Part shown: piece by piece, positions 4,576-63,413 of the stretch
Position numbering within the stretch: the first letter of the stretch is position 1
Layout of the letters: each line of letters starts with the position of its first letter
DNA from: Hydra vulgaris
Lineage: Eukaryota; Cnidaria; Hydrozoa; Anthoathecata; Hydridae
Assembly: GCF_038396675.1 (NCBI RefSeq)
Contig: NC_088929.1
Location: 34,151,501-34,215,500, forward strand
Direction of reading: 5' to 3'
DNA: 64,000 nucleotides
Made by a program: the position numbers and the translations under genes
Notes under the pieces: generated by a model
Told to the model about the DNA's origin: nothing
Database searches by the model: none
What the model saw: only the letters and a program-made list of their open reading frames with translations

Positions 4576-21941
<17,366 letters not shown>

Positions 21942-47130: not shown

Positions 47131-48329
47131 ATATTGTGATTGCCAATGTAAAATCAAAACAAGTAATGTACAGGAAACACAACGAACGGAACGTACTAGT
47201 TTTTTTTCCTGTCATTTCTGCCAATGCTAAAAATTTCAGGTTCTGTATCTATTGGTTCTGCTGTATTGCACTTTACTAGTAATGGAGCTGTTCTTTCTAA
47301 CATATTATGCAAAAATCTAGGGGAAAGGACTGTAAAACATTTAATGTTTTACAGTCCTTTCCACTAGATTTTTGTCCTTATGGTAAATCTAATAAAAAAT
47401 AATTTTTTCAACACCATAAATACAATAAGAAATGAAGCCTGAACCAGAAATAGCAGCTAACTGATGCATTTCATTTGTATGAGTTGTTGTTTTAAATTAA
47501 AGATTGCATAAGATATAAAAAGCTTTAGTGCTTTAACTTTCATTCCTAATTTTAAAGTTAACATATTAAAACACCAATTTTTATTGTTGTTTTCAAGGCG
47601 TATCTACCTTTATATTAATTCAAATAAAAATTCAGGAAGCAGTTTAACCATTGTCAATTTCTGAGTATAGCTGTCAACGGATACCCGGGCACCAACCACC
47701 GGGTTACTGCCGGAGTAGCATTATTAAATGACGGGTAAACGTCATTTGATAATTTTAAAATTTACTTCATGCATTTTTAAAGTTTAAATTCATTAATTGT
47801 AGTATAAAAGTTTAACATTATTAACTTAGTATGTGAACAAAGATCTTGAAGATCTTGCTGGAAAAATTTCAATAGTTACGATTTCTTTATTACCATAAAA
47901 TTTTATCAGAATTTCTCAAAACATTCAACATAGCGTTTTTTTTTTAAACTATTATTTTTAGGTGCTCCAAAAAGTTCCAACAGTCTTATATCACAGAGCA
48001 CCATAAAATACCATTTAACCGGAAAGTTTATACCATTTTCCTTACCAATATGCATACTCGCATATGGCCAGAGCCGGTGTTGCTTGACTGGTGTTCCTAC
48101 CAAATTTTTTCCCCTTGGAAAGTTTGTATCGGGACAAACTTTCTATTCGGAAAGTATATTCTAAGATAAACATTCCGGGGAGATACACTATTTCTTCAGG
48201 CAGAGGCCCGTAATAAATATGCCCCGGATAAAATTTTTACTAAAAATTTTTTTTTTTTTAATAAAACAGTTTTTTTTTTTGTAATTACTGTTATGCTTTT
48301 TTAATTATTAAACAAACTAAACCAAGGAG
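47131..48329. other. No gene; decayed repeat pieces
   Basis: Contains the hairpin at 47311, a CGGATACCCGGGCACCAACC patch near 47678, and TTCCGGGGAGAT/GCCCCGGATAAA pieces (48170-48230) that resemble 49570-49720 and may be ends of an unidentified DNA element. Confidence 0.4.
47311..47373. repeat. Hairpin (30-bp arms, 3-nt loop)
   Basis: Arms 47311-47340 and 47344-47373 match at 29 of 30 positions around TTA. Confidence 0.95.
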
Positions 48330-49055
48330 CCAGGGGCGGATCTAGCTAACTTCCAGACTTGGAGCTCCATAACATTTATATGTTTATACTTACATCAAAT
48401 AAGGATGCTTTACAAAAAATTGCGATGATTGGAGCCTGGGAAGAAAAATACCCTAAGTTGTGATAACTGTATTTTAACTGCTGAATCACGCTTTTACTTT
48501 CTCTTTTTTTTTTTTTTAAATAAATTACTATAAAATAAATAAAATAAAGTGCCATATGAAAATTCTGCATCAAGATCCTCCATGCACATCAACGCTCCTT
48601 GCAGATGCAGATTCAGCATTTTTTGGTTTTTGAAAAAGTTGATAAAATATTTTTCTTATTATTCTTAACTAGGCTTATATTCATCAGTTTAATAGTATAA
48701 TCTCCCATCAATCAAAAATTATGACTATATAAAACTTGTAACCTCCTTAAATTGAGGGGTTTTAAACTTTGTATGGTCATAATTTTTGAACGCTAAAATA
48801 ATTTACTATAAAATTTAAAACTGATTGATAAATATAAGTTTAATTAAGAATAGTACAAAAAATATTTTATCAACTTTCTCAAAGACCAAAAAATGCTGGA
48901 TCTGCCTTTTCAAGGAGCGTTGATATGCTTGGAGGATCTTGATGCAGAATTTTCATACGGCCCCCAGTATTTTATTAAAAAAAAAAAAAAGAAAGATAAT
49001 TAAAGAAAAAGTAAAAACGTGATTCAGAAGTTAAAATACAGTTAAAAATATCATT
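48330..49055. mobile_element. Large fold-back (palindromic) element
   Basis: Arms of roughly 260-280 bp (about 48466-48725 and 48775-49050) are inverted copies at about 80-85 percent. Both carry GAAAATTCTGCATCAAGATC, a GCTCCTTG block, AAAGTTGATAAAATATTTTT and ATAATTTTTGAACGC-like pieces. A left flank with CAGGGGCGGATCTAG precedes it. A shorter copy lies at 25795-26135. No coding sequence. Confidence 0.8.
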
Positions 49056-49736
49056 CAGCTTGTTTTAATTGTTGATAATTTGCAACACCTTCTCGCGTCC
49101 ATGTTTACGTGATTTTTGAAAACGATGAATCAATAAATTTAAAACGTAATCAATAGTTTTACTATTTGGAAAGCAAATAACTATAATAAATGCAAAATTT
49201 ATGTTATTTCATATAAAGTTGTTATATATATAAAATACGTTATTTCATATAAAAATGATTCGCAATTTTATAAAGTTATTTTACTAAGCATAAAAAAAAT
49301 GCATATAGAATATGCAATATTGAATAACTAGGTGATATATAGTCCAAAGAAAATTGGAAAACTAACAAGCGTTTGTTTTTTAAAACATTCAAACACATTC
49401 TAAGCCTGCAAGAAGTTATTTTGTTAACAATCAAATTTGTAATAATGTCAGTTGATTTTTTTAATTTGGCATTTAAACAGATTGTATATTTATACATATT
49501 ATTTAATTTATAATCTATTTTGTAACATTTAACTGCACAATTATATCAATTTGTGTATTTTAAAGTATGCATTAAATAAATATTTAGGGGGAAATAATGT
49601 CATGGAGAAAATTTTATTTCGTTGATAGGGGAAAAAATTAAACGAGGGGGGAGATATTACTTCGATATAAATTTTCCCCCGGAAAGTATATTTTGAGCGG
49701 GGGATTATTTTATAATGGGCAGTATATATTTCTTAA

Positions 49737-49805
49737 TACCGTCTTTGAACCACAGAACTCTAGTTCTAAAGCCAGAACTCTAATCACTACACCACGGCTG
49801 CAAGA
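49737..49805 (-). repeat. tRNA-like SINE head
   Basis: On the minus strand GCCGTGGTGTAGTGATTAGA holds a good RNA polymerase III A box, and GTGGTTCAAAGAC, about 35 nt on, resembles a B box. The anticodon-arm region (TTCTGGCTTTAGAAC) pairs. No complete acceptor stem is seen, so it is a SINE or tRNA pseudogene rather than a working tRNA. Confidence 0.5.
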
Positions 49806-50184
49806 TTGGGAAAGTTATTTGAGTATATGATTCAGATATCCACTTATTATTTCTGTTTGATGAATAAATTTATTCCTATGTAAAATGGTTTACATTACGT
49901 AAATCAGAACTTTTCCAACTTTTTTATTAATATGTCTCTCGGACAAAACTCTATCAAAATTTGAAAGATGGAAGATATAATTACCCTATATTAGCGCGCA
50001 GGTATATGCGCATACCCGCAATTTCCTTTTGGTTATGTGACCAGGATTATGAAATATGGAAAATCACACGTTTACGAGAAAATTCTCAATTTGCCGATTT
50101 GCTTCCAATGCCAAGCTTCCTCCGATAACATTCCTGAACTGCTAGAGTTGTCAAGATGTTTCTACAGTTCTCCTAAACACTCTA

Positions 50185-50252
50185 GAATGTTCAAGAAACT
50201 TTCAGAACTTTCAAGATAATCTCAGAACTTTTTAGAACATTCTTGAACGTTC
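50185..50252 (+). promoter_or_regulatory. Phased heat-shock-element array
   Basis: Alternating GAA and TTC triplets in strict 5-bp register at 185, 190, 195, 205, 210, 225, 235, 240, 245 and 250 (add 50000). The register positions 200, 215, 220 and 230 are one-base or more imperfect. That is ten perfect units out of fourteen. It includes GAATGTTCAAGAA and GAACATTCTTGAACGTTC, full HSF1 trimer sites. It lies 18 bp upstream of a TATA box. Confidence 0.88.
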
Positions 50253-50270
50253 TAAAAGTAGCTGTACAAG

Positions 50271-50278
50271 TATAAAAG
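50271..50278 (+). promoter_or_regulatory. TATA box (TATAAAAG)
   Basis: Canonical TATA box 18 bp after the heat-shock array and 90 bp before the ATG at 50368. A start of transcription near 50300 is expected. Confidence 0.8.
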
Positions 50279-50367
50279 CACAGGTGTCAAGAACCAAGAT
50301 TCTAATTTGTGTTATTCCAGACTGAAAGGATAACGATTCTTAGTTGAAGAGAATTTATTTATTTGAT

Positions 50368-51960
50368 ATGGCATCAAAAGGTTATTTGCATCCAGCTGAT
50401 TCATTCTGCTACGTGTGCGGACAATTCATAAAGACAATGGCGAAAAAATGATTCCTTTGAAGCAAGTCGCATAATTTTGAAGGCCTAAAAGACATACTTC
50501 GGCGAGCTGGTCGGGGACCAAGACAAATTTTGAGCACCGCATTTCTCATGCAAGTATTGCAAGAAAAAACTTGAAGGTAAAATGAACAGTTGCTTCTCGC
50601 TTAGATTTGTTTAAATTTATTTTCATAAAATTTAAATGCTTTAGATCTAGTTCGTTTCAACGAGTCGTAGTTTAAAATAAGTTGTGTACTGTAGGCAAAT
50701 ACGTTCCACCATGAATTCGTTCCATATTTTGAAATTTCCTGTCCTCAAATTATTATAATTCTTATGTATTATTATGTGCTATGTTACAGGTTGGAGAAGA
50801 GAAGAGAAGCGAGCCATAAAGTTTGCTATCCCACAAGTTTGGCAAGAACTGACGGACCACTCAAGCAACTGCTACTTCTGGATGGTAAACCCAAAAAATT
50901 GTCGCAGTGGTAAAAATGTCTTTCAGATTGTTTATCCGGACATAACTTCTTCCATTGCCCCAGTACCACACAGCCCCAATCTGCTTGTTCCAACTCTTCC
51001 TAGGCGGCATTGACCATCTTCAGGAGACAGTAGCAAATCAGATAGCAAGGCAGATACTGTAAATATGGACTGCAATTCTGCTGATGAAGTTGGGTATGGA
51101 AAGCTGTACTTCCCTAACCAGAAAGACGTGAAGAATCTAATTAGGGACCTCGGGCTTACAAAATTAAATGCTGAGCTTCTGATATCCAGGCTCAAACAGT
51201 GGCACTTGTTTGATGATAGCGTACAAGTCACGGATCAAAAGAAGCGGCATCAAAGATTCTGCAACTTCTTCATTAATATATTGGTATATAGGTATTGCGT
51301 GTAATCCTATTGAATAGTGCCTATTCATAGACAGTTCACTCCGGAGACTCAAAGCCGTGTTGCTTTACAATGGAAACAACTACCCGTCCCTCCCGATGGC
51401 CCACTGTGCATCTAAAAAATAACACCTAAATGTCAAAATGTTGCATTGCTCGTTAAGCAATTTTTCTCGGAGGTATTGAAATGCTGCTGACTCTTGGCAA
51501 GGAGTCAGCAGCATTTCAATACCTCCGAGATCTTTTTCCGAAGCTGTCCGAGGCTAAGGTCAGGGCTTGTATATTAGTCAGACCTCAGATTAAGAAGATC
51601 ATAGAATATAAGGATTTCGCAAAGCTGTTGAACAGGACGGAGAGAGTGGCATGGACCTTTTTTGTAGCAGTTGTTCAGAGTTTCCTAGATAATCACAAAG
51701 CTGAAAACTATGTGAAGTTGATGCAGACTTTCATAAAGAATTATGCCAAAATGGGATCCAGAATGTCTCTGAAAGATCATATCCTTGATTCGCATAGCGA
51801 CAAGTCCAAGGAGCAAGACGAGCCCTTTCATCAAGTATAACAAAAACATGATGTGGGACTACATTTGGGGGCTACTTCAAGAAAGTGATTCACAGTATAA
51901 CCATAATCTAGAAAATCGCAACATTTCTGAACCTTGTTGAGTGGTTTCCGACTGTGTTTG
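50368..51960 (+). pseudogene. Heat-shock-promoter-driven transposon-like gene, broken
   Basis: The ATG at 50368 opens MASKGYLHPADSFCYVCGQF with a CxxC zinc-knuckle-like motif, then an in-frame TGA at 50449. A splice donor (AAG|GTAAAA, after 50576) and acceptor (TTACAG, 50789) bound an intron of about 213 bp. Exon 2 pieces follow: WRREEKRAIKFAIPQVWQEL with CYF (50790-51012), DLGLTKLNAELLISRLKQWH (51065-51300) and GKESAAFQYLRDLFPKLSEA onward (51495-51838), ending near 51960. A middle segment is missing between about 51300 and 51480. I recognise a repeat-encoded protein family of invertebrates but not its enzyme activity; no DDE or RT motif is visible. Confidence 0.7.
51465..51530. repeat. Perfect hairpin (29-bp arms, 8-nt loop) at a deletion junction
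   Basis: Arms 51465-51493 and 51502-51530 are exact reverse complements. The right arm is coding sequence of the transposon-like gene (ESAAFQYLRD) and the left arm is its inverted copy, at the place where the middle of the gene is missing. Confidence 0.95.
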
Positions 51961-52296
51961 TCTATCTTTTTGCAATTTTGTTTTTACCTTAAAATTTCCG
52001 TTACATAATATTTTTAAACTAATGAAATTCAATGCATTTGTTTATACGATGCCTTTTTAAAAAAAAATCTATTTCGTCATTTTCATAATAAGTTATTTAC
52101 AAAATATTTTGAGTTAAGATATGACCGGAGCAGGCAGAAGACAAAAGTCGTATCATCTAGCCCCGTTGTATCGTTTACACTATAATAAATCTAATCTATC
52201 ATTAAATTTTACAGTATCAGTAAAATAATATAAATACTTTTAAATAAACATTTTAAACTTTTTTTTTATACATAAAAAAAAATATTTTTACACGCA

Positions 52297-52301
<5 letters not shown>

Positions 52302-52350
<49 letters not shown>
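52302..52350. repeat. (TA)n microsatellite
   Basis: TA run in the LINE 3' UTR. Confidence 0.93.
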
Positions 52351-52355
<5 letters not shown>

Positions 52356-52478
52356 AAGGAAATGAATACAAATTTAAAAAAATAAGCAAAAAAATATTTT
52401 TTGCTTTTTAGCAAACGAAAGAAAATTTTAAGAATAAAAAAAAGAAAATACTAAAAATAAAATAGAATTTGAGATGAC

Positions 52479-52588
52479 GTCATAATCATTTGAGATATGT
52501 CATAATCATTTGAGATATGTCATAATCATTTAAGATATGTCATAATCATTTGAGATATGTCATAATCATTTGAGATATGTCATAATCA
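52479..52588. repeat. 20-bp tandem repeat, 5.5 copies
   Basis: Unit GTCATAATCATTTGAGATAT, nearly identical in all copies, just 3' of the LINE RT stop. Confidence 0.95.
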
Positions 52589-53305
52589 AGTGTTTTTTAA
52601 AAATAATTTTCAAAGTTTGAAGTGAATTTATAGTTTTACTTTCAATTGGAAGGAATGAGTTCCACAAATGTGGCCCTCGGTATGTTATTGAGAAATTAGA
52701 TTGTTTTAATAAGGTTTTTGGTACCTGATAGTTATGCAATGAATGCTTTGTATGATATTCATGATTTATAATAAAAAAAAGGTCGTCAAAAATATTTGGC
52801 AGCATACAATGTTTCAATCTAAACATGAATAAAAGAATACTGTAAATAATTAATTGATAAACATTAAGCAATCCAAGCTTTCTAAGCAGCGGATTGCCAC
52901 ATGTGTTTTTATTAGCATTTAATATAAAGCAGCTTGCTTGTTTTTGTTTATTTAAGATACGCGTTAATTTGATGGATAAGTGCTGGCCCACGCAATATTA
53001 CAATAACTGATATAGCTATGGATAAATAAAAAGTAGATAAGTTTTAAGCAATTTTTATCCAACATATCTCTTGTCTTATACATAATTCCAATACTCTTTG
53101 AAATTTTATTTTCTATTAAATTAATGTGGTCTTTCCAACTTATTTGTTCGTCAAGTAAAACGTCTAATGAAATATTTGGAAGTTTAAGGGGCAAAGTTTC
53201 AGATTTCGAGGGTTTAGAAAAAAGAATATATTTGCTTTTAGTTTTGTTTAGAGATAGTTTGTTGACTTTCAACCATTCATTGAGGTTGTCAAGCTCATGA
53301 TTCAT
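52566..53305 (-). pseudogene. LINE reverse transcriptase thumb and C-terminus
   Basis: Two frames, 52964-53305 and 52566-52991, overlap by 28 bp and together read the RT thumb to the C-terminus. The change of frame disables it. Confidence 0.82.
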
Positions 53306-54275
53306 AGTGATAAAGACTGACTCTATGTTTGAGTGGGTATAAAAAACCTGATTGTCGTCAGCAAAAAGATTGAAGTTTAATGCACTAGAAGATAAGTAAA
53401 TATCGTTTTTGTAGATAATAAATAATAAAGGCCCTAGAATAGATCCCTGTGGAACTCCGCAAGAAATATTTTCCAGTTTAGTACAGGTTTTGTCACAAGA
53501 TACACATTGTTTTCGATTATAAAGATAGGAAAATAACCATTTATAATTATTATTTTTGACTCCATAATTTCTAAGTTTGTAAAGAAGGATATTATGGTCT
53601 ACAGTATCGAAGGCCTTTGAGAGGTCAATATAAACCTAGGGCAAATGTCATCAAGACCTGAGCTTTTGTTTGGTTTTAACATAGTATAAGCAAACCGAAG
53701 ATCATTTGGATACTTCAAGCTCATCCATCACACAGTCCTCTTCTTTCATATATGATTTAAAATTTTTATTTCCGGGAGTTTATTTGCTAGGTTTTTACCG
53801 ACGTTTATAAAAAAATTATTAAAACTCTCTGCAACAACTTTTCGCTCATTAATTACTGTTCTTTTATCTTCAGTGTATACATATTTTGGTAAAGTATTAC
53901 CATGATCTTGTTTATTTTTCCCTATCACTTCCTTTATTATATCCCAAGTTTTTTGGTTATTACTTATATCATTTTTAAGGGATTTTGAGTAATAACTTTT
54001 TTAGTTTTTCTTTTCAGGTTTTCAAACAGGTTTTTGTAAATTTTATATTTTTTTTCGTTTTGATAAGTTTTATTTTTCAAAAATTTTTCATATAGTCATT
54101 ATTTTTTCTTTGAAGATTTAATAAGCCTTTTTGTAATCCATGGACTTTGCAGGCTTCTAAGCTTAATTTTTAACTCCTTCATCGGAAACGCTTTATTGTA
54201 AACATTAATGAACTCATTGTAAAAAAAAATCATAAGCTATAAGTAGTATATATTGAGAGTTCTGGGCCATGCCGT

Positions 54276-54485: not shown

Positions 54486-57400
54486 TCATAGCATACTTAA
54501 TTTTTTATCTTCTTCACATTCTACTGGTTCCTGTTCTACTGGTTCCTGTTCTGCATCTTGTTCTGTTGTCTTGTTTCTTAATATATAGTGACCATATGCT
54601 AATGTATTCCATCTTCTAATACGACTCTTTTATCATCTTCTGCACTTAATGCTACTTTATTAATCTCTTCTGTATAAACTTCATGTGCATGTGATCTTAT
54701 AATATTCATTTTCCTAATGTGCTCTTTTCTATTAAGTAAACAATCTTTATAATCATCGTGTGTTATGTAGTTCTTAACAACATTCTTTTTTACTCCTTTA
54801 CATCTTTTGCTTTCTTTTTCATGAATCTTGTATGAATATAATTTGGGTCTTAATCCTACAAATTCTTCTATTTGTTTTCCTTCTGCTTCATCTTTGAACA
54901 TTCCAAGTACTTTTTTATTTAATCCAACTTTAAATCCGTTATTAATTGCTGGATGATTTGGAACAAATTCACTAGTATCAAATTTACTTTCAATATCGTT
55001 TTTAATATCTTCATAAAAATCCTCTGTTTTTATTTCTTATGCTAATGAATCTGTATCTGTGAATAAGAGTTTGGCTTTATCAGAATATTTTTTCTTTATA
55101 TAATCATAATGAAATTCATACATTAGGGTTTTGCTCAAATCTAATATACACGTTTCTAAGTAAATTGGCTTGTTATACTTTAATTTAGTTCTTTTCATGT
55201 GAATCGCTATTAAATTTTCATCAAATATTGTCCTACTTTCATAGTTTGGTCTTGATGCTAATTTAACAGCTTCATCTCTGTTTGTGACTAACTTTACATC
55301 AACTCTTTTTTCAATATTTTCCATTGTTTTTCCAAAGACTGAATTGTTCATGAGTTTAAAGAAATCTTTTTCAAATTCATTTGTTGCTTTAGTCCTAAGA
55401 TTAGTATTCAGATCAATGTAATCAATTAACCATGCACTTTCTTCAAAGCTTATTCCTCTATGGATTTTTGTTATATTTAATCCTAATCTTTCATACAATT
55501 TAAGATTGGTATAATGTACTACATAATTTTTCTTATTATTCAAGTTTGGTATAAGTTTTTCAACTTTATCCACTTTGACTCTTTCAGGAGCAAGTGGATA
55601 GTCATTATGTTCATCATGAAGATGATCTGGATAATCTAAATCAACTTCAAGTATACATGGAAATGATCTCCAGTTTTTCAATTCATCTTGATCCATCCAA
55701 CCAAATCCGTGTGTTGGAAGTGGTTTACTCATAGCCCATCCATATAGATTATTAGCATCTAGATATTGGATAAATTGTGATGGTTTAGTTTCATCATAAT
55801 TATCCATATATTTATTATTAGATTTTCCTAATCTATTTGATATCGTACTGATTCCACCTCTTATTCCATTCTTTATCATGAGGATCATATCATAATCACT
55901 CAACAGTTGTAACTTTACTTTTGTTTTTCTCAATGCAGCCTCCCAAGCTAATCCTGGTGATGTATAATACCAAGCTGGATCTAACTTATAATTTTTCATG
56001 CAAACATCTCTAAAATTTTCAAAGACATCAGCTAGTAAAAGTACATCTGAAACATTATATAAATCATGATAATCTCTAAATGATCTGCATTTAAATTCCA
56101 TCCATACAGTTTACGCATGTGCGAAAGCATCATCATTAATTCCTTTATCATTTAATTTAGAAAAGAATGATTCTTTTGGAGGTAGTTGTGTTTCATTAAA
56201 TTTATCAATAGAATCAACCCAATCATAAGGGTATACACCTTTTTTCATTAACAAATCTAATTGTTTCCCTTTATAAAATTCTCCAATATTTTTACATTGG
56301 TCTTTTGTTAGATTTTTTGATAAGACATCTAAACTAGATGGCATAAATCTATAACTGTCTAAGAAACGAATCTCTCGTTTAATATCAACAGTCTTATCCT
56401 CTTCAATATACTCTCCAACTTTAATCTCCCTAGAAAAGCTAATATACTTTTCTTCGTTGTTAGGTATACAACTTAATTTACCTCCTGATAACTTCTTTAT
56501 GAATAAGTGACTATCATAACCAGATAAGTTATGAAATAGTACTGGGAAGAACTCTGGAATCCTATATGTCAAATTACAAATTTTATGAGCAGCACCTCTG
56601 TATTTTCCAGTTAAATGGCAATGATCTCGCACTCTGTCTTCTCCTAAATATTCTTCACAAATATGACACTTTATTGCTGCATCAAATGCTTTCTTGTTTT
56701 TACTTGTAAATATCATAGGCTTCTTAAAATCTACTTCATTACAAATTTTTATAATATCTTCTTGTAGATATTCTATAAATATTTGAGCAATACTATCTTC
56801 TTCATTATTTGCAGTATATGTTACTAATCTATCTTTGTATATACTTTGATTATAACATTTAATATAGTAACAGAATGAACTTGGTATATGTTTTTGATAC
56901 TGCTTCGTATAGGATTCATCTGGATTAGGTGTACAAGTATTGATAGGTTTAATAAAACTTTCAAAGTCTGCATATATTACAAAGGGTACTCTCATCGATT
57001 TATAATAATGTTTAAAATACATTGTTGTTCCTGGTTTTGGAAGTTCAATACGAACTGAATCATGTGCATCACAATACAATTTATGCTTAGATAAATATTC
57101 TTCTGAACTATATCCTAATAAGCAATTTCTACAATAGTGAGTTGCACCATTTCTTTTTGATGTTTGCGTTGAAAGTAATCTACTTAAATTATTTATCAAG
57201 CAGTAATGATTAGATACTTCAGATCCATTCGGAGTTGTTTCATCACCAGTTATTAACAATAAATCTATTAAATTTTTTCGACCACTATTATGTGATAATC
57301 GCAAAGGATGAACATAAAAGTTTTCATACCCAAATACATTCACACTTATATCTGGATTGATTTTCTCAAATAGATCAATTTGTTTTAATGAAACTGGAAA

Positions 57401-57703
57401 TTCTATTTTATCCCAATTTATTTTTTCAGCTTGAGTTATAAGATCATTATCTACTCTTTCAGGATGATTATCTGTTGGATTTAAAAATCTAGCTATACAC
57501 CACTTAAAGCATTGATTATCTTCATTTTGCATATTAATGATTGCTTTTTTAGCTGTTAATTTTTTATCAAATGGAATATAAGATTTAGCTTTAAGTGGAT
57601 TATACTCTATAATATTTATATCTATTTTTTTAATAGAAACAAATGCCCAGTTTGATCCTTCCTGTTGAAACAATGATAAATTTTCTAAAATTTTAGACTT
57701 TGT
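54486..57703 (-). pseudogene. polB: Protein-primed family B DNA polymerase, interrupted
   Basis: Replicates the linear viral genome from a terminal protein. First part (56111-57673): Cys-rich finger HYCRNCLLGYSSEEYLSKHK, exonuclease motif VIYADFESF, an endonuclease-VII-like Cys/His block (CHICEEYLGEDRVRDHCH) and FHNLSGYDSHLFIKKL. Second part (55037-56101): YLDANNLYGWAMSKPLP, KLMNNSVFGKTMENI and the catalytic FTDTDS. Third part (54599-54901): C-terminal region. In-frame TAA stops at 56111-56113 and 55037-55039 separate the parts without a frame change. Near 54600 the frame shifts, and an acidic tail with Glu-Pro-Val repeats continues in another frame to 54486. There is no ATG: the open frame begins at 57703, overlapping the end of the SAP protein, and TTG at 57673 is the first near-start. 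In relatives a SAP-like region often precedes the polymerase. Confidence 0.92.
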
Positions 57704-58253
57704 TTAACATTTCTACATGTCTTTGATTAACATTTCTAGTAGTATTAAATTGTCTTTGTATGAATGGTCGTTGAATATAAATTGGTCTTTGATTGAAATG
57801 ACGTTGATTATTAAATTGTCTTTGATTAAAAGTACTAGAAGCAGGAATTGATCTAATAGGCTCCTGTGAAATAGGTCTTTGAATTACAGAGTCATATCTA
57901 TCAGGAACATATCTATCAGGATGCGGGACATTTGGACGTGGAGCAGGATTAGGTCTTTGAATTACAGAGTTATATCTACCAGGAACATATCTATCAGGAT
58001 GCATGGCATTTGGACGTGGAGCAGGAATAGGTCTTTGAATTACAGAGTTATATCTACCAGGAACATATCTATCAGAATGCATGGCATTTGGACGTGGAGC
58101 AGGAATTGGTCTAATAGGCTCCTGTGAATTAGTTAATTGCGATAATTCATTAATAAGTTCGCGTCTTGGCTTTGTATAGTAATATTTAATTCCTCGCTCT
58201 TTGGCGATTTGTCTTAATTCTTTTACCGTGTTGTTTTCCATTTTTATATCCAT
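57693..58253 (-). CDS. SAP-domain protein with proline-rich 27-residue repeats
   Basis: 186 residues. Residues about 8-40 (VKELRQIAKERGIKYYYTKP) form a SAP/Rho-N-like helix-extended-loop-helix, a DNA-binding fold. Residues about 47-128 hold three repeats of the type RPIPAPRPNAMHPDRYVPGR followed by YNSVIQ. The last 50 residues are Asn/Gln/Arg-rich (QRQFNNQRHFNQRP). The first ATG is at 58253; a second, at 58241, follows ATATAAAA and fits the viral start motif better. The end overlaps the open frame of the polymerase, so in other copies the two may be one polyprotein. Tandem repeats at the DNA level may vary in number. Confidence 0.8.
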   Translation of the reverse strand: MDIKMENNTVKELRQIAKERGIKYYYTKPRRELINELSQLTNSQEPIRPIPAPRPNAMHSDRYVPGRYNSVIQRPIPAPRPNAMHPDRYVPGRYNSVIQRPNPAPRPNVPHPDRYVPDRYDSVIQRPISQEPIRSIPASSTFNQRQFNNQRHFNQRPIYIQRPFIQRQFNTTRNVNQRHVEMLNKV

Positions 58254-58375
58254 AAGATTTTTATTTTTTATAAAAATAAAATTTCTTTATATCATTTTTT
58301 TTTAAAAATTTTTTTTCTTATCAAAAATTTTATATGATAAAATCATATGAAATTTAATATTTTATAAATTTAATA

Positions 58376-58528
58376 TTATTTTTTTGGTCTTTTTATAGCG
58401 GTTTTGTAAGATTCACATTTTTCAAAAGGATCTGAAGTAGATTGCACAAATCCTTTTGATTTTTTCCAATACAATTGACATGAAGTTGGTTTAAACATTT
58501 TATAAAATTCCATACCTTTATCTCCCAT
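58376..58528 (-). CDS. Small 50-residue basic viral protein
   Basis: ATG at 58526-58528 directly after GATATATAAAA, the same start motif as neighbouring genes; TAA at 58376. 50 residues, Lys-rich with two Cys and one Trp (FKPTSCQLYWKKSKGFVQST, then DPFEKCESYKTAIKRPKK). The function is unknown. Spacing and start motif suggest a real gene. Confidence 0.6.
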   Translation of the reverse strand: MGDKGMEFYKMFKPTSCQLYWKKSKGFVQSTSDPFEKCESYKTAIKRPKK

Positions 58529-58540
58529 TTTTATATATCA
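58529..58540 (-). promoter_or_regulatory. Viral start motif of the 50-residue gene
   Basis: GATATATAAAAATG, with the TATA-like string 3-10 nt before the ATG. Confidence 0.5.
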
Positions 58541-58569
58541 ATCTTTTTTTTTTAAGCGCTTTTAGCACA

Positions 58570-59013
58570 TCAAAAATCTAAAGATTTTTTAAATTTTTTA
58601 GAATTGAGTACTTCAATCTTATAACCATCCTCAATCTTTCCATCACGTAATTCAAAATAACCATATCCATGTCCAGTTTCTTTCATAGCCCTATATAATG
58701 ATTTATATATTATTTCTTCTCCTGTTTCTATGTTTGTGAGTTTAATAGTGACTGGTTCTTTCCTAATTGTTCTTAATCTTTCATATTTTGGATCAATTTC
58801 TTGTTTTTTTTTTTCTTCTTTTACTTTATTTAATCTAGGTCTTCCAATAGGTCTTTTCACATCAGTTAATTCTGTTGCTTTTGACATGATTGCATCCTTA
58901 TCAATCAAACCATTATCTATAGCAAGCATTAATAATGTGACATAATTTTTAGATGTTTGTGAAATGTTATTTTCTTTTAATAAATTTTGCAATGCTGTCC
59001 TTGTATAATACAT
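58570..59013 (-). CDS. AT-hook plus NUMOD1-like DNA-binding protein
   Basis: 147 residues. Residues 1-50 are helical. Residues about 53-63 (KRPIGRPRLNK) contain an AT-hook-like GRPR core followed by a basic stretch. Residues 88-138 (VTIKLTNIETGEEIIYKSLY, then RAMKETGHGYGYFELRDG) resemble the NUMOD1 helix-turn-helix found next to homing endonuclease domains. No nuclease domain is attached. It is likely a sequence-specific DNA-binding or regulatory protein of the virus. The start is set by TATATAATAAAAATG. Confidence 0.65.
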   Translation of the reverse strand: MYYTRTALQNLLKENNISQTSKNYVTLLMLAIDNGLIDKDAIMSKATELTDVKRPIGRPRLNKVKEEKKKQEIDPKYERLRTIRKEPVTIKLTNIETGEEIIYKSLYRAMKETGHGYGYFELRDGKIEDGYKIEVLNSKKFKKSLDF

Positions 59014-59026
59014 TTTTATTATATAA
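59014..59026 (-). promoter_or_regulatory. Viral start motif of the AT-hook gene
   Basis: TATATAATAAAAATG immediately 5' of the coding region. Confidence 0.5.
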
Positions 59027-59052
59027 AGAAAAAAAATTATTTATATCATTTT

Positions 59053-60348
59053 TTAATTAATAATAAGGTCTAATTTACTTCCATCTGATTTAAAATTCAC
59101 TAATTTATCTGATATTACTACAGCATATCCTATCGTATATTGAGGAACTGCTGTATTAAAGTTCATTTTAATTTGTATATCTATTACTGATGATTTATAT
59201 CTTTCTGGTTGATTACTTACATCAATAACAAATATAGGGAACAAATCTTTATAATCAAGAGGTTGTATGTTACTATGAGTAATCAACTCGTTCATTCCAT
59301 AATATTTTTCACTAAATACAGCTGCATCTCTATAAGCTCTTGAGAATTGTTGATTTGGAAATGATAAGCTGTAATCAGTTACTGGGTATTTATCAGAACT
59401 TAGCATAACGTAAATACTTTTCAAGTCACAATGATCGAATATTGCTGGATTAGTTGTTTGATCTCCATTTTTATTTGTTTGAAATCCGACAACAATATAT
59501 CTTGGTCTTTCACTAGATGTTTTTACACTAAGTTTCCAAGTAGTTGATAGAGTTTGTGGGATTTCTAAACTATCACATTGTCTAGTTCTAAAAGCAACTG
59601 GAATTGTTGCTTTAGATGCTATAATACTTAAAAGTTCATTTTGTTGTGCTAGAGCTGGCTGTACATACGGCATAAACAATGTCACTCTTTGGAGGTCTAC
59701 TTTTCCAGCAGCTACAGTAGCTCCTCTAAAAATAGCATCATCATCAGATTTTCTAGTAAGAATTATTGTATGTTTAAATTCATAAATAACTTTATCATAA
59801 TCATCACAGAATCCAAAGGTATGCTTTAAAGGTACGCAAAATGAAAATGTACCTTTTGCAGTTGGTTTTTGAATCAAGTATCCTTGTCTTGCTGCAAATC
59901 CTGTGTTTTCTGCAATAACTGCTGTTGTTGCTGAATCTTTATACCATAATTGATTCAACCCTTGAGCTAATTGATAATCGTTCGGGTATTTAAGCATCCC
60001 TAACATTGTAGTTGCTTGTCCAGGATTAAAAACTACTTCAATATCTTGATTAGATAATTGATAAGATATTTGACTAAATAGATACATAATGCCATTATTT
60101 GTAAGAGCTACTGCATCTGCATTAGCATAAGCTGTATTATCAGCTTTAAGAAGTCTTCCTTCAAACAACAGATATGCATCAGATGGTACTGAATATAAAT
60201 TGGATTGTTCAATATTTATTATAATATTTCCACTATTATTTAGATTAGGTCGAGATGCTGGATCATAATCTCGATAATAATATTTTTCAATTGATTCATC
60301 TACAATTGGTGTTTCTGTAATATTTAAAATTGATTGAGAAGTTGTCAT
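59053..60348 (-). CDS. Probable major capsid protein
   Basis: 431 residues, the best preserved long ORF besides the polymerase. No stops. Beta-rich with few Lys clusters. Recognisable blocks are NLYSVPSDAYLLFEGRLLKA (about 49-68), ALTNNGIMYLFSQISYQL and GFCDDYDKVIYEFKHTIILT. Size, composition and position next to the core-like and DNA-binding ORFs suit the double-jelly-roll major capsid protein of Polinton-like viruses. The assignment rests on context and remembered family appearance and not on a structure match. The start is fixed by CTATATAAAAAATG. Confidence 0.6.
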   Translation of the reverse strand: MTTSQSILNITETPIVDESIEKYYYRDYDPASRPNLNNSGNIIINIEQSNLYSVPSDAYLLFEGRLLKADNTAYANADAVALTNNGIMYLFSQISYQLSNQDIEVVFNPGQATTMLGMLKYPNDYQLAQGLNQLWYKDSATTAVIAENTGFAARQGYLIQKPTAKGTFSFCVPLKHTFGFCDDYDKVIYEFKHTIILTRKSDDDAIFRGATVAAGKVDLQRVTLFMPYVQPALAQQNELLSIIASKATIPVAFRTRQCDSLEIPQTLSTTWKLSVKTSSERPRYIVVGFQTNKNGDQTTNPAIFDHCDLKSIYVMLSSDKYPVTDYSLSFPNQQFSRAYRDAAVFSEKYYGMNELITHSNIQPLDYKDLFPIFVIDVSNQPERYKSSVIDIQIKMNFNTAVPQYTIGYAVVISDKLVNFKSDGSKLDLIIN

Positions 60349-60360
60349 TTTTTATATAGA
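60349..60360 (-). promoter_or_regulatory. Viral start motif of the capsid gene
   Basis: TCTATATAAAAAATG with the TATA-like string 4-10 nt before the ATG. Confidence 0.5.
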
Positions 60361-60373
60361 AAAAAATTTTTTT

Positions 60374-60850
60374 TTATATACTCCGAAGGCCTCTCCCTTT
60401 TTTAACTATATCCTCTATTCTGATAGCATTCTTACGTGATAGCTTTACTCCGCTTGGGCCTTTCAAACCTACTCCATTTCCATTAATTATATTATTTAAA
60501 TTTGTTACTGCTTCATCTCCTGACTTTGCTAATTTTGATAATATATCCTCACTTTTTTTACTAAGATTTACTTTTGGAGCTACTTTATTAACTAATTTAT
60601 TTCCTTTTTCAATTGTAACATTTTTAGCAACTTCTATTGCTGATGTTGCAAGTTCTTTTCCTGCTGATTTAGCAGCAGTTACTGCAGTTTGTCCTAAATC
60701 AGTAGCTGCAAGCTTTTTAATCATAGCTGATGATACTTTTGTTACATTTGATGCTGCTGCTCGTCTAAACATTTCTCTTAAAGTATCAAAAAATCCACTA
60801 CCACCAATAACATGTTTTTTCACAAATCTTTTATTTTGAACAATAATCAT
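60374..60850 (-). CDS. Adenovirus-core/minor-capsid-like hydrophobic basic protein
   Basis: 158 residues from the ATG at 60850 (an upstream TTG adds only two residues). After a basic start comes HVIGGSGFFDTLREMFRRAA, a Gly-Gly-Phe plus amphipathic helix pattern seen in pVI/pX-like minor capsid proteins. A long Ala/Lys helical middle and a basic C-terminus (KNAIRIEDIVKKGRGLRS) follow. It probably binds DNA or the inner capsid. It ends 25 bp before the capsid start motif. Confidence 0.6.
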   Translation of the reverse strand: MIIVQNKRFVKKHVIGGSGFFDTLREMFRRAAASNVTKVSSAMIKKLAATDLGQTAVTAAKSAGKELATSAIEVAKNVTIEKGNKLVNKVAPKVNLSKKSEDILSKLAKSGDEAVTNLNNIINGNGVGLKGPSGVKLSRKNAIRIEDIVKKGRGLRSI

Positions 60851-60873
60851 TTTCAATTAGAGAAAAAAAATTT

Positions 60874-61812
60874 TTATATTGCAAGATTATTCTGTATTGC
60901 TTCATACTTACCCTTACTTAATACACCTTGTCTTAATAATTCATCGCTAATTGCAACAGCTTCATTTCTTGATGAACTATTACCTGCTTCCCATGCAGCT
61001 ATACGTAACTCAAGCATCTCAACTAGAGCATTAGGATCGCTAGGAAGAATTACAGTTTGTATTCTTGTTCTTTTAACTCCAGTTCCATATTCAAGTTTTC
61101 TCTTCGATAATATAGGAGTCCTTATATCTTTCCAAATTGGAGATATTAACTCATTATATTTTTCACTTCTAGATGATCTTACTTTACCTTTATCAGTAGT
61201 AAGAGCATCTGTATTTATTAATATTTCTCTATAATTTCTAAGACCTTCATTACTATATACCTCTTTATTAGGTTTAAACTTTGTTACTAATTCCCAAAGA
61301 CCTGGTGTACCATCATATTTCTTTCCATCAACAGTTATATCATCATTATTAATTGTAATTGGTTTTTTACCAATATATAGTTCATCTCCATTTGAATGTA
61401 TACCAAATATAGGATCTGTAGACTTTTTACTTTTTGTATACAATCTAAGATAATTTGTTGCAATTTTTCCAAAATTTAAAATATTAGGTTTTTCTTGTAC
61501 TTTGGAGTCAGTAAGTGTTTTCACCATACCATCAGGAGGAAGTAGTTCTGAAGGACCCATGCGAAGTATAGCAAGATCCTTTTCAGGATTTGAAAAAGTG
61601 AGTGCTAATTGATCTTTCAAATTAGATATAGTATTATTTATTCCAGATTGACTATCAATTAAGGGTCTATATAACTTTGATAAATCCATCTGTAGGTTAT
61701 AGTCACCCACCTTTTCAGCAATATTATCTTGTTGTACTTTTTTCTTAAGATAAATGTATTCTTTTACAAGTTGATCTCTTTTATCTGGATCTGTAAATTT
61801 AAATAACGACAT
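60874..61812 (-). CDS. Conserved viral protein, possible minor capsid/penton
   Basis: 312 residues from the ATG at 61812 (MSLFKFTDPDKRDQLVKEYI), chosen over an upstream in-frame ATG because AATATATAAAAATG precedes it. The N-terminal third is helical. The middle has DELYIGKKPITINNDDITVD and GTPGLWELVTKFKP; the C-terminus has VILPSDPNALVEMLELRIAA. This protein type recurs in animal Polinton-like elements. Its job is not known to me; a minor capsid or penton role is a guess from position. Confidence 0.6.
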   Translation of the reverse strand: MSLFKFTDPDKRDQLVKEYIYLKKKVQQDNIAEKVGDYNLQMDLSKLYRPLIDSQSGINNTISNLKDQLALTFSNPEKDLAILRMGPSELLPPDGMVKTLTDSKVQEKPNILNFGKIATNYLRLYTKSKKSTDPIFGIHSNGDELYIGKKPITINNDDITVDGKKYDGTPGLWELVTKFKPNKEVYSNEGLRNYREILINTDALTTDKGKVRSSRSEKYNELISPIWKDIRTPILSKRKLEYGTGVKRTRIQTVILPSDPNALVEMLELRIAAWEAGNSSSRNEAVAISDELLRQGVLSKGKYEAIQNNLAI

Positions 61813-61826
61813 TTTTATATATTTAA
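61813..61826 (-). promoter_or_regulatory. Viral start motif of the 312-residue gene
   Basis: CTTAAATATATAAAAATG immediately 5' of the coding region. Confidence 0.5.
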
Positions 61827-61835
61827 GAAAAAAAT

Positions 61836-61868
61836 AAAACACATAACACAAAAGATGTTATGTGTTTT
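61836..61868 (-). terminator. Perfect hairpin at a viral stop codon
   Basis: 13-bp arms (61836-61848 and 61856-61868) with a 7-nt loop, starting at the TAA of the 133-residue ORF and followed on the minus strand by an A/T-rich tract and then the next start motif. Its position suggests transcript termination or 3'-end formation. Confidence 0.5.
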
Positions 61869-62269
61869 TAATTATTATAAATGATATCTTTAATTTCAAA
61901 ATCACTATAATTAATATCAATATCTTCTATCGGATTAAATATTAAATCAGACAATAGTTTGCTTCTTGTAAATTTTTTTTCTTTAAGATTACAATCTAAA
62001 TTATATACATATCTATCAACTAATCTACATTTTTCTTTCTTACTAGTATTTTTCCATTCTTTATATGATTCTTTAATCATATTTTCAACATTACGATAAT
62101 CATTATCTTTATAATATTTAAACTGAATAAGATAATATAGCTTATCTCTAGCTTCATCACTATACTGAGTAGGTATTTCAAAGTTACCTCTATCAGTAAT
62201 TAGCATATTATTTCTTATAAAGCCTGCTTCTCCAAATACTAATTTTTCTAAATACCTTTTTTTATTCAA
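61868..62269 (-). CDS. Unidentified viral ORF, 5' end uncertain
   Basis: 133 residues from a TTG at 62269; the open frame reaches about 62305 without an ATG. Charged, Tyr-rich, probably helical (YYLIQFKYYKDNDYRNVENM; SYKEWKNTSKKEKCRLVDRY). Upstream, TTAACCTTTCTTTTTAG at about 62292-62308 looks like a 3' splice site. An ATG at 62320 preceded by TATTAAAAAT closes after four codons. So the true start may be spliced in or lost. The function is unknown. Confidence 0.5.
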   Translation of the reverse strand: MNKKRYLEKLVFGEAGFIRNNMLITDRGNFEIPTQYSDEARDKLYYLIQFKYYKDNDYRNVENMIKESYKEWKNTSKKEKCRLVDRYVYNLDCNLKEKKFTRSKLLSDLIFNPIEDIDINYSDFEIKDIIYNN

Positions 62270-62351
62270 ATCATTTTCACGCTTGCTACATTCTAAAAAG
62301 AAAGGTTAAAAGTAAAACATATTTTTAATAACAAGAAAGAATTTACTTAAG

Positions 62352-63005
62352 TTATTTTATTTTATTAATATTTTCAGATTTATTAAATCTCATTTGTAAT
62401 AGATTAATTGCCTCCTCTCTTCCTTGATTAATAAACGATATTTTAGATTGTTCATCAATATCTTTTTTAATTTTTGATCTAATATCTTCAAGCATAATTT
62501 TAAATTTTTCAAATTCGCTAAGTATCAGCTCAAATTCTTTATCATCTATTTGTCCGTCTACTAAAGCTTTAGAAATATGATCCATTATTGTATAAAATTT
62601 TGAATTTGCAAGTATTTTAATACTTTCATGTTTTTGTGCTTTTAAACTTAATTCTTTATTCACTTGTCCTCCTATCAATGAAAGAGCTCCTATTGCTAAT
62701 GCTGCTCCTTCACATGCAATAGCTATTGGTGCTGCTACTATTGTAGCTAAAAAACCAATACCAACAGTTCCAAGTGCCATTGTACTTCCAATTAATGCAA
62801 CATCAACTGCTGAAATTATTTTTATTGCTTTATTATACTTTTTACTTAATGTAGATCTTTTTTCTCTCTCCATTTCAATTTCTTTTTGAATTTCACATAT
62901 TTTATTCAAACGGTATACAGTAGCACTTACTTGAGTTTCTATTTCAGTATATTCGTTTGGTAAAGACGGATATAATTTATTATTAGGTTTAGCTGAATAC
63001 TCCAT
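62352..63005 (-). CDS. Unidentified viral membrane/coiled-coil protein
   Basis: 217 residues. Residues about 25-62 form a charged helix (KICEIQKEIEMEREKRSTLS). Residues about 65-112 are a Gly/Ala-rich hydrophobic hairpin (VALIGSTMALGTVGIGFLAT; IACEGAALAIGALSLIGGQV) that could span or perforate a membrane. The C-terminal half is helical and acidic. The start follows CTTTATAAAATG. It may be involved in membrane penetration; this is inference only. Confidence 0.55.
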   Translation of the reverse strand: MEYSAKPNNKLYPSLPNEYTEIETQVSATVYRLNKICEIQKEIEMEREKRSTLSKKYNKAIKIISAVDVALIGSTMALGTVGIGFLATIVAAPIAIACEGAALAIGALSLIGGQVNKELSLKAQKHESIKILANSKFYTIMDHISKALVDGQIDDKEFELILSEFEKFKIMLEDIRSKIKKDIDEQSKISFINQGREEAINLLQMRFNKSENINKIK

Positions 63006-63014
63006 TTTATAAAG
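63006..63014 (-). promoter_or_regulatory. Viral start motif of the 217-residue gene
   Basis: TTTATAAAATG immediately 5' of the coding region; one A-tract shorter than the others. Confidence 0.4.
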
Positions 63015-63028
63015 GAAATAAAAAAATT

Positions 63029-63413
63029 TTATAATAAATTAATAAAGCATAAACTATCTCCTTTATTAATTGTTACATCTTCAAATGAATTATTTTTAAT
63101 GATAATAACTATATCATCTACAGACTCTGATATAACAGAATTTTGTAAACATAGCAATTTTAACTTAAGTTCATTTTTAAGTGAAACTAATGCAACACTA
63201 TTGCCATTAATTTCAATACCTAATTTTAATGAAATACTTTTTTGAGACATAATCTAATTTAATATCTTGCTGTGCAAATATTTCACATTTTGTACCGTTT
63301 ATTAATACTGTAGGATGATCTAATTTTTCATTAAATTTAAAATGTGAATTAGATGCATAAGTATCAACCATTGGTATCTTATTTATAAATTTATGTATTG
63401 GATATCTAGACAT
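63029..63413 (-). pseudogene. dUTPase-fold-like viral protein split in two frames
   Basis: Frame 1 (63213-63413, 66 residues) starts MSRYPIHKFINKIPMVDTYA after TATATGTAAAAACATG. Frame 2 (63029-63250, 73 residues) overlaps it and ends with a pattern like the trimeric dUTPase core: VSLKNELKLKLLCLQNSVIS, then DDIVIIIKNNSFEDVTINKG and a short hydrophobic end. The usual catalytic Asp/Tyr motif 3 and the Arg/Gln of motif 4 are absent, so it may be a structural, non-enzymatic relative. Frames differ by one base around an A-run near 63233. A frameshift mutation or two overlapping genes are both possible. Confidence 0.45.

Follow-up and report, generated by a model that had tools for sequence, protein, structure and literature searches.

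Transposon relic and promoter in the window

We analyzed a stretch of 64,000 nucleotides of the Hydra vulgaris genome (contig NC_088929.1, forward strand), called the window here. It contains the relic of a DNA transposon, assigned to Chapaev3, at 50028..51989 on the + strand. These are the outer limits of DNA similarity to other copies and were set against L007, L014, L017, L018, L019, L020, L022 and L023. Both termini are gone: no terminal repeat was found in window positions 48000-54000, nor in L001, the locus of the window copy, when up to 3 mismatches were allowed.

A unit scan placed an HSE array of 14 five-bp units at 50184..50253 (strand +), with 10 units perfect and alternating between GAA and TTC. 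Other copies carry it at the same position. The TATA box TATAAAAG follows at 50271..50278 (strand +), 18 bp 3′ of the last TTC, and the transposase ATG lies at 50368, 115 bp past the array end. The original prediction, made from the letters of this stretch, described 14 in-register units, ten of them perfect, 18 bp before the TATA box and about 115 bp before an ATG; its coordinates, counts and spacings were correct. With three or more alternating nGAAn units ahead of its TATA box, the locus has the layout by which a promoter driven by heat-shock factor (HSF) is predicted.

The array had the top score of the 64-kb window (10/14 units, all ten alternating). Among the top 20 positions displayed, the only site outside the array was near 2244, with a score of 5. 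As a chance control we simulated 60 sequences, each of 64 kb, with a first-order Markov model. The maximum number of alternating units was 4 in 52 runs and 5 in 8 runs; without the alternation requirement, the maxima were 4 to 7. The simulations agree with the earlier view that ten in-register triplets are improbable by chance.

Downstream of the promoter is a transposase pseudogene in two exons. Exon 1 (50368..50576, strand +) encodes an N-terminal zinc-finger-like part corresponding to residues 1-70 of the relative P0080 and contains a frameshift and stops. The GT...AG intron (50577..50789, strand +) was placed by the family exon boundary after residue 70, where a gap of about 200 bp recurs in other copies (for example L004, L009, L016, L017 and L029). 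Exon 2 (50790..51901, strand +) lacks residues ∼288-392, a deletion of about 105 residues that took out C(2)C, LH and an invariant Asp. Besides its two ends, the window copy has lost part of the catalytic core. A perfect inverted repeat of 29 bp with an 8-bp loop (51465..51530) adjoins the internal deletion. Pieced together from 50368 onward, the pseudogene corresponds to a damaged version of a protein some 562 aa long, the length of P0080.

Several other features were observed in the window. A reverse transcriptase fragment lies just downstream of the relic at 52566-53635 on the - strand (PF00078, E 2.3e-19 for 52967-53635). Beyond it, 54599-63038 on the - strand is a Polinton-like stretch with long open frames, one of which resembles a double jelly-roll protein (match to PF21738, E 8.5e-51). 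Other frames in this stretch resemble, in our own reading, a protein-primed DNA polymerase; in Pfam, one of these polymerase-like frames matched only Endonuclease_7 (E 3.7e-5) and the other had no match. Remnants of a hAT-like transposase are at 14223-16634 on the + strand, where the match to the hAT dimerisation domain was below cut-off (E 0.00098). A pair of 136-bp inverted repeats, 88% complementary around a 139-bp centre, at 48551-48961 resembles a short element of the foldback or MITE type.

Chapaev3 lineages and the place of the array

To assign the element we used its termini, its target duplications and the motifs of its transposase. Protein searches found relatives in lamprey, sturgeon and other fish, in horseshoe crab and in insects, among other animals; in one of these searches, 3078 of the 8000 candidates scored had E ≤ 0.001, of which 120 were listed. 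No relatives were found in phage records (query P0001), viral contigs or prokaryote contigs. Across 38 relatives, C339, L384, H385, H493 and H498 were invariant or at least 90% conserved and C336 was at least 90% conserved, which gives C(2)C, LH and H(4)H. The invariant residues D263, D317 and E515 are a candidate DDE triad. In Pfam, no match reached the cut-off for seven relatives or for P0080, itself one of the 38; the commonest weak match was zf-AD (14 of the 38 members, best E 0.0014). Two PDB searches gave nothing significant, with best E values of 0.032 and 1.5.

The window lineage ends in CACTATGTAACAA and GTTACATAGTG. L005, L007, L018, L019, L020 and L022 had the search-motif terminus at one end, and further ends were recognised at 1-3 mismatches. 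In the five copies with both ends, the target duplications were TAA/TAA in L018 and TTA/TTA in L007, and the flanks of L006, L020 and L022 were unmatched. Passages of the published account give as hallmarks of Chapaev3 the CAC...GTG ends, a TWA duplication between A and T, and the motifs C(2)C, LH and H(4)H (PMC4079192). Figure legends of the same paper place Hydra magnipapillata among the species in its tree and include lamprey and sturgeon kinds among the hosts. Described elements such as Merrow and Garfield have the same termini, the same A/T-flanked TWA duplication and the same motifs, and in those passages their transposase is likewise about 560 aa long and split into two exons (PMC4079192). 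On this evidence the window element is best assigned to Chapaev3 (CMC). The original prediction had proposed either a mobile element or its domesticated relative. The Chapaev3 termini, duplications and motifs in relatives support the mobile element.

We searched the genome (911.5 Mb in 15 contigs) for other copies. The protein search gave at least 151 matches, with 150 of 1417 candidates scored. At least 77 matches, window included, form the window lineage at 55% or more identity to the window copy. Among the 77 listed, the longest open frame was 270 aa and no copy was intact. Twelve of 30 protein-found loci hold the start of exon 1 plus about 150 bp or more upstream. The array was kept in 10 of these 12, one of which is the window copy; the other two (L007 and L024) apparently carry deletions. 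In L005 and L006 the 5′ end is present but the array and the start of exon 1 are both lost, and in L004 the locus edge cuts within the array. A DNA search with 50100-50620 gave 237 candidates. The best 40, window included, were scored, and all 40 run through the promoter, starting at or before query position 58 and ending at or after 459, so that array, TATA box and ATG are spanned. Conservation of the array among copies, proposed earlier as a check, was therefore confirmed by 10 of 12 protein-found copies and all 40 promoter loci scored. The outcome named against the original prediction, that other copies lack the array, applied only to some deleted copies (the same L007, L024, L005 and L006).

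The position of the array was clearest in L018, which runs from base 39 to base 2226 with both ends and TAA on each side. Its array, worn to 5/14, and its TATA box come after the 5′ end and before the ATG, the array falling in the element's first 350 bp. The gene of this copy is damaged and lacks some of its parts. In L018 the array is inside the element, between the terminal repeats. The 3′ part of the oriented loci (bases 1850-2260) had no array in any of 30 loci, with 3/8 units at most. The array belongs to the element's own promoter, between the 5′ terminal repeat and the transposase.

We aligned 29 promoters: 20 fetched promoters, which are a biased sample because they were picked by promoter similarity, the window copy and eight protein-found copies. 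The alignment did not include L011, whose array is partial. The consensus has 13/14 perfect units, the eighth unit being TCT, with the TATA box 18 bp from the array. Individually, 21 copies score at least 8/14 and 8 score 6/14 or less; the window array is a worn version of a better one. Each base of TATAAAA is kept in 27-29 of 28-29 copies, and 24 of 28 copies retain the G that ends the box. The array has changed in length by 10 bp (two units) in several copies, with a gain in L058 and losses in L002, L020, L061, L067 and L062. Changes of other sizes were seen in L017, L018, L019, L054 and L070.

To compare conservation we set CpG sites aside and counted departures from the consensus: 75/1091 in GAA/TTC, 37/494 in spacers and 175/2527 downstream. 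GAA/TTC was no better conserved than the spacers (Fisher P 0.67). An apparently stronger conservation of GAA/TTC had a first P of 0.052, and this was gone once CpG sites were removed. Because GAA/TTC differ as often as the spacers, no selection for the motif is visible from the copies alone, and the case for this putative HSF motif rests on the regularity of the consensus. The copies erode evenly at the neutral rate, as fossils that have not been exapted. The array was good while the element moved, with nothing visible maintaining it since. Since the lineage looks extinct in the copies listed, present-day heat mobilisation of the window lineage is unlikely.

We also considered a domesticated host gene, the other half of the earlier proposal. 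In place of the intact frame under selection that marks such a gene, we found the frameshift, the stops and the deletion described above. This candidate was ruled out by the broken frame, the many copies and the neutral decay of the arrays.

A second Chapaev3 lineage in the same genome is younger. It has at least 45 matches, 44-45% identical to the window copy, and a 567-aa open frame. Of 20 young copies (L031-L050), 19 align to the probe copy at 99.2-99.7% identity over about 2.26 kb. All 20 have the termini CACCATGTAACAA...TTGTTACATTGTG. Matching 3-bp flanks were present in 19 of 20, TWA in 18, and A/T flanks in 18 of 20. The near-identity of these copies suggests that the young lineage is recently or currently active. 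In the array scan, the best score was 3/8 units in 19 of 20 loci; the array of the remaining locus, L049, lies outside the element. This lineage has multiplied without the array, and its termini are closely similar to those of the window lineage.

Arrays were also seen in the neighbourhood of two young copies. L049:401 is a 10/14 GAA/TTC array about 2.1 kb upstream of the element, unlike the arrangement in the window lineage, and a Tc1-type array lies near another copy (C1:3661864).

Long arrays in the rest of the genome

To count long arrays we searched for an exact six-unit pattern, three GAANNTTC blocks 2 bases apart. It occurred at 144 places versus 2 for the backward control. The 50 listed of the 144 correspond to 43 distinct sites on C1-C6. 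Of these 43, 11 belong to the window lineage by coordinates, 4 more resemble it in sequence, 25 form a second class, and 3 fit neither. The two transposon families account for an estimated 40 of the 43 long-array sites listed. Among the 25, 7 overlap places from a Tc1 search (one is the probe) and 3 were aligned directly (L071, L072 and L074); the other 15 were assigned from 28 bases of sequence alone.

This second class consists of a Tc1-like transposon family whose own array and TATA box precede the transposase, inside terminal repeats. In L073 (segment L073:288-1201), the terminal repeat is at 288, a 13/14 array at 589, TATATAAG at 802 and the ATG at 1095. The arrays of L071, L072 and L074 score 10/14, 12/14 and 8/14, respectively. 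L081:1-1420 continues into matches to PF01498 and PF13358 and then into the 3′ terminal repeat. The plan is the one seen in the window lineage, with the difference that the transposase is unrelated. The search gave 1188 candidate places, and of the 40 scored, the 39 other than the probe were 91-96% identical to it; the family therefore looks younger. It would be a better candidate than the window lineage for present-day heat mobilisation.

For comparison with host genes, we scanned about 635 bp before the ATG of hsp70 at six of nine first-exon places (L075-L080); the three left out were equal-scoring partners in inverted pairs. The HSEs in these regions are short and weak, with at most 3/6 and 4/14 units, which is far poorer than the transposon arrays.

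Proposed heat-shock control of the transposase

We consider it likely that heat-shock factor drove the Chapaev3 transposase from the element's own HSE promoter, the heat induction itself being read from the promoter layout. In order, the promoter has about 14 alternating nGAAn units, 18 bp, the TATA box, a short 5′ leader and the ATG. The transposase gene would be transcribed from a promoter built like that of a strong heat-shock gene. HSF trimers would bind the array cooperatively during stress and raise the level of transposase. Heat or other proteotoxic stress might then cause bursts of excision and insertion. The lineage would later have died, leaving its arrays to erode in place. The sequence evidence suggests that heat or stress once switched on transposition.

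Other explanations of the array were weighed against this one. HSF bound to the array could serve mainly for unstressed expression in the germ line or stem cells, with mobilisation not tied to heat. HSFs have developmental roles in animals; against this, a long regular array with a TATA box is the layout of a strongly inducible promoter, and we regard such a role as unlikely. It would fit the cell-population-specific expression of CMC-Chapaev-3 in Hydra that is described in passages of a published study (PMC12220107). The array could instead consist of subterminal repeats that the transposase binds and requires for excision, its likeness to HSEs being coincidental. Many DNA transposons have short subterminal repeats, and the L018 array lies close to the element's 5′ end. 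However, no 3′ counterpart was found in any of the 30 loci, and the young lineage, with closely similar termini, moves without an array. The units keep the 5-bp alternating register of HSF sites at 18 bp from the TATA box in the consensus, and an array of this kind also precedes a TATA box in the Tc1-like family, whose transposase is unrelated. The array is thus most likely not a transposase binding site, and we give this reading somewhat less weight than expression without stress.

The promoter may also have been captured from a host heat-shock gene, the arrays being pieces of host promoter. Its layout, which we take to resemble that of an hsp promoter, favors such an origin, but none of the six hsp70 upstream regions has such an array. 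When the promoter was used as a probe, the best 40 of 163 candidates were all at least 87% identical to it, with three weaker second matches at the same places. We find host capture improbable; it is a claim on origin and is compatible with HSF control. Least of all do we expect a product of chance or a tandem-repeat artefact, which is hardly credible. The window is AT-rich (27.8% G+C) and repeat-rich, which would favor such patterns, but none of the 60 simulations exceeded five alternating units, the six-unit pattern far outnumbers its backward control genome-wide, and the array is common to other copies. Heat-shock control of the transposase is the reading we retain.

We compared the element with known systems. 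The HSE array before the transposase sets the Hydra element apart from described Chapaev3 elements, for which the passages of the published account mention none (PMC4079192). Among the open-licence titles and abstract openings covered, those on Chapaev and heat shock describe no such promoter; these titles and openings, and the passages cited here, describe no cut-and-paste transposon with such an array. The transposable element ONSEN of Arabidopsis contains a heat response element (nTTCnnGAAn), and its transcription depends on heat-shock factor, according to passages of the report (PMC3907296). It is a copia-type LTR retrotransposon of a plant with the element in its LTR, and these passages describe no 14-unit array (PMC3907296). 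In Helitron1_CE of C. elegans, an autonomous DNA transposon, HSEs precede the transposase, whose heat-shock up-regulation is HSF-1-dependent in the published passages (PMC6927752). By analogy, we regard Helitron1_CE as the nearest tested precedent for an HSF-driven transposase. Helitron1_CE is a rolling-circle Rep-helicase element and was tested in vivo, whereas the Hydra element is of the cut-and-paste type, presumably DDE, and is known from sequence.

Stress activation of transposons is often ascribed to loss of silencing. Here the element itself seems to carry a very regular HSF-type array, better than that of the six hsp70 regions examined. With the array in this element and in a second, unrelated family, there is a direct and testable case in which cut-and-paste transposons may evolve stress-timed activity. 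More tentatively, and with less than even confidence, we propose that at least two unrelated superfamilies in Hydra, Chapaev3 and Tc1/mariner, independently gained hsp-grade promoters and that heat drives coordinated bursts of both. The dispersed arrays might now be most of the strong HSF sites in the genome and able to put nearby host genes under heat control. Hydra is a system in which transposons appear to have largely spread the long HSF-type arrays.
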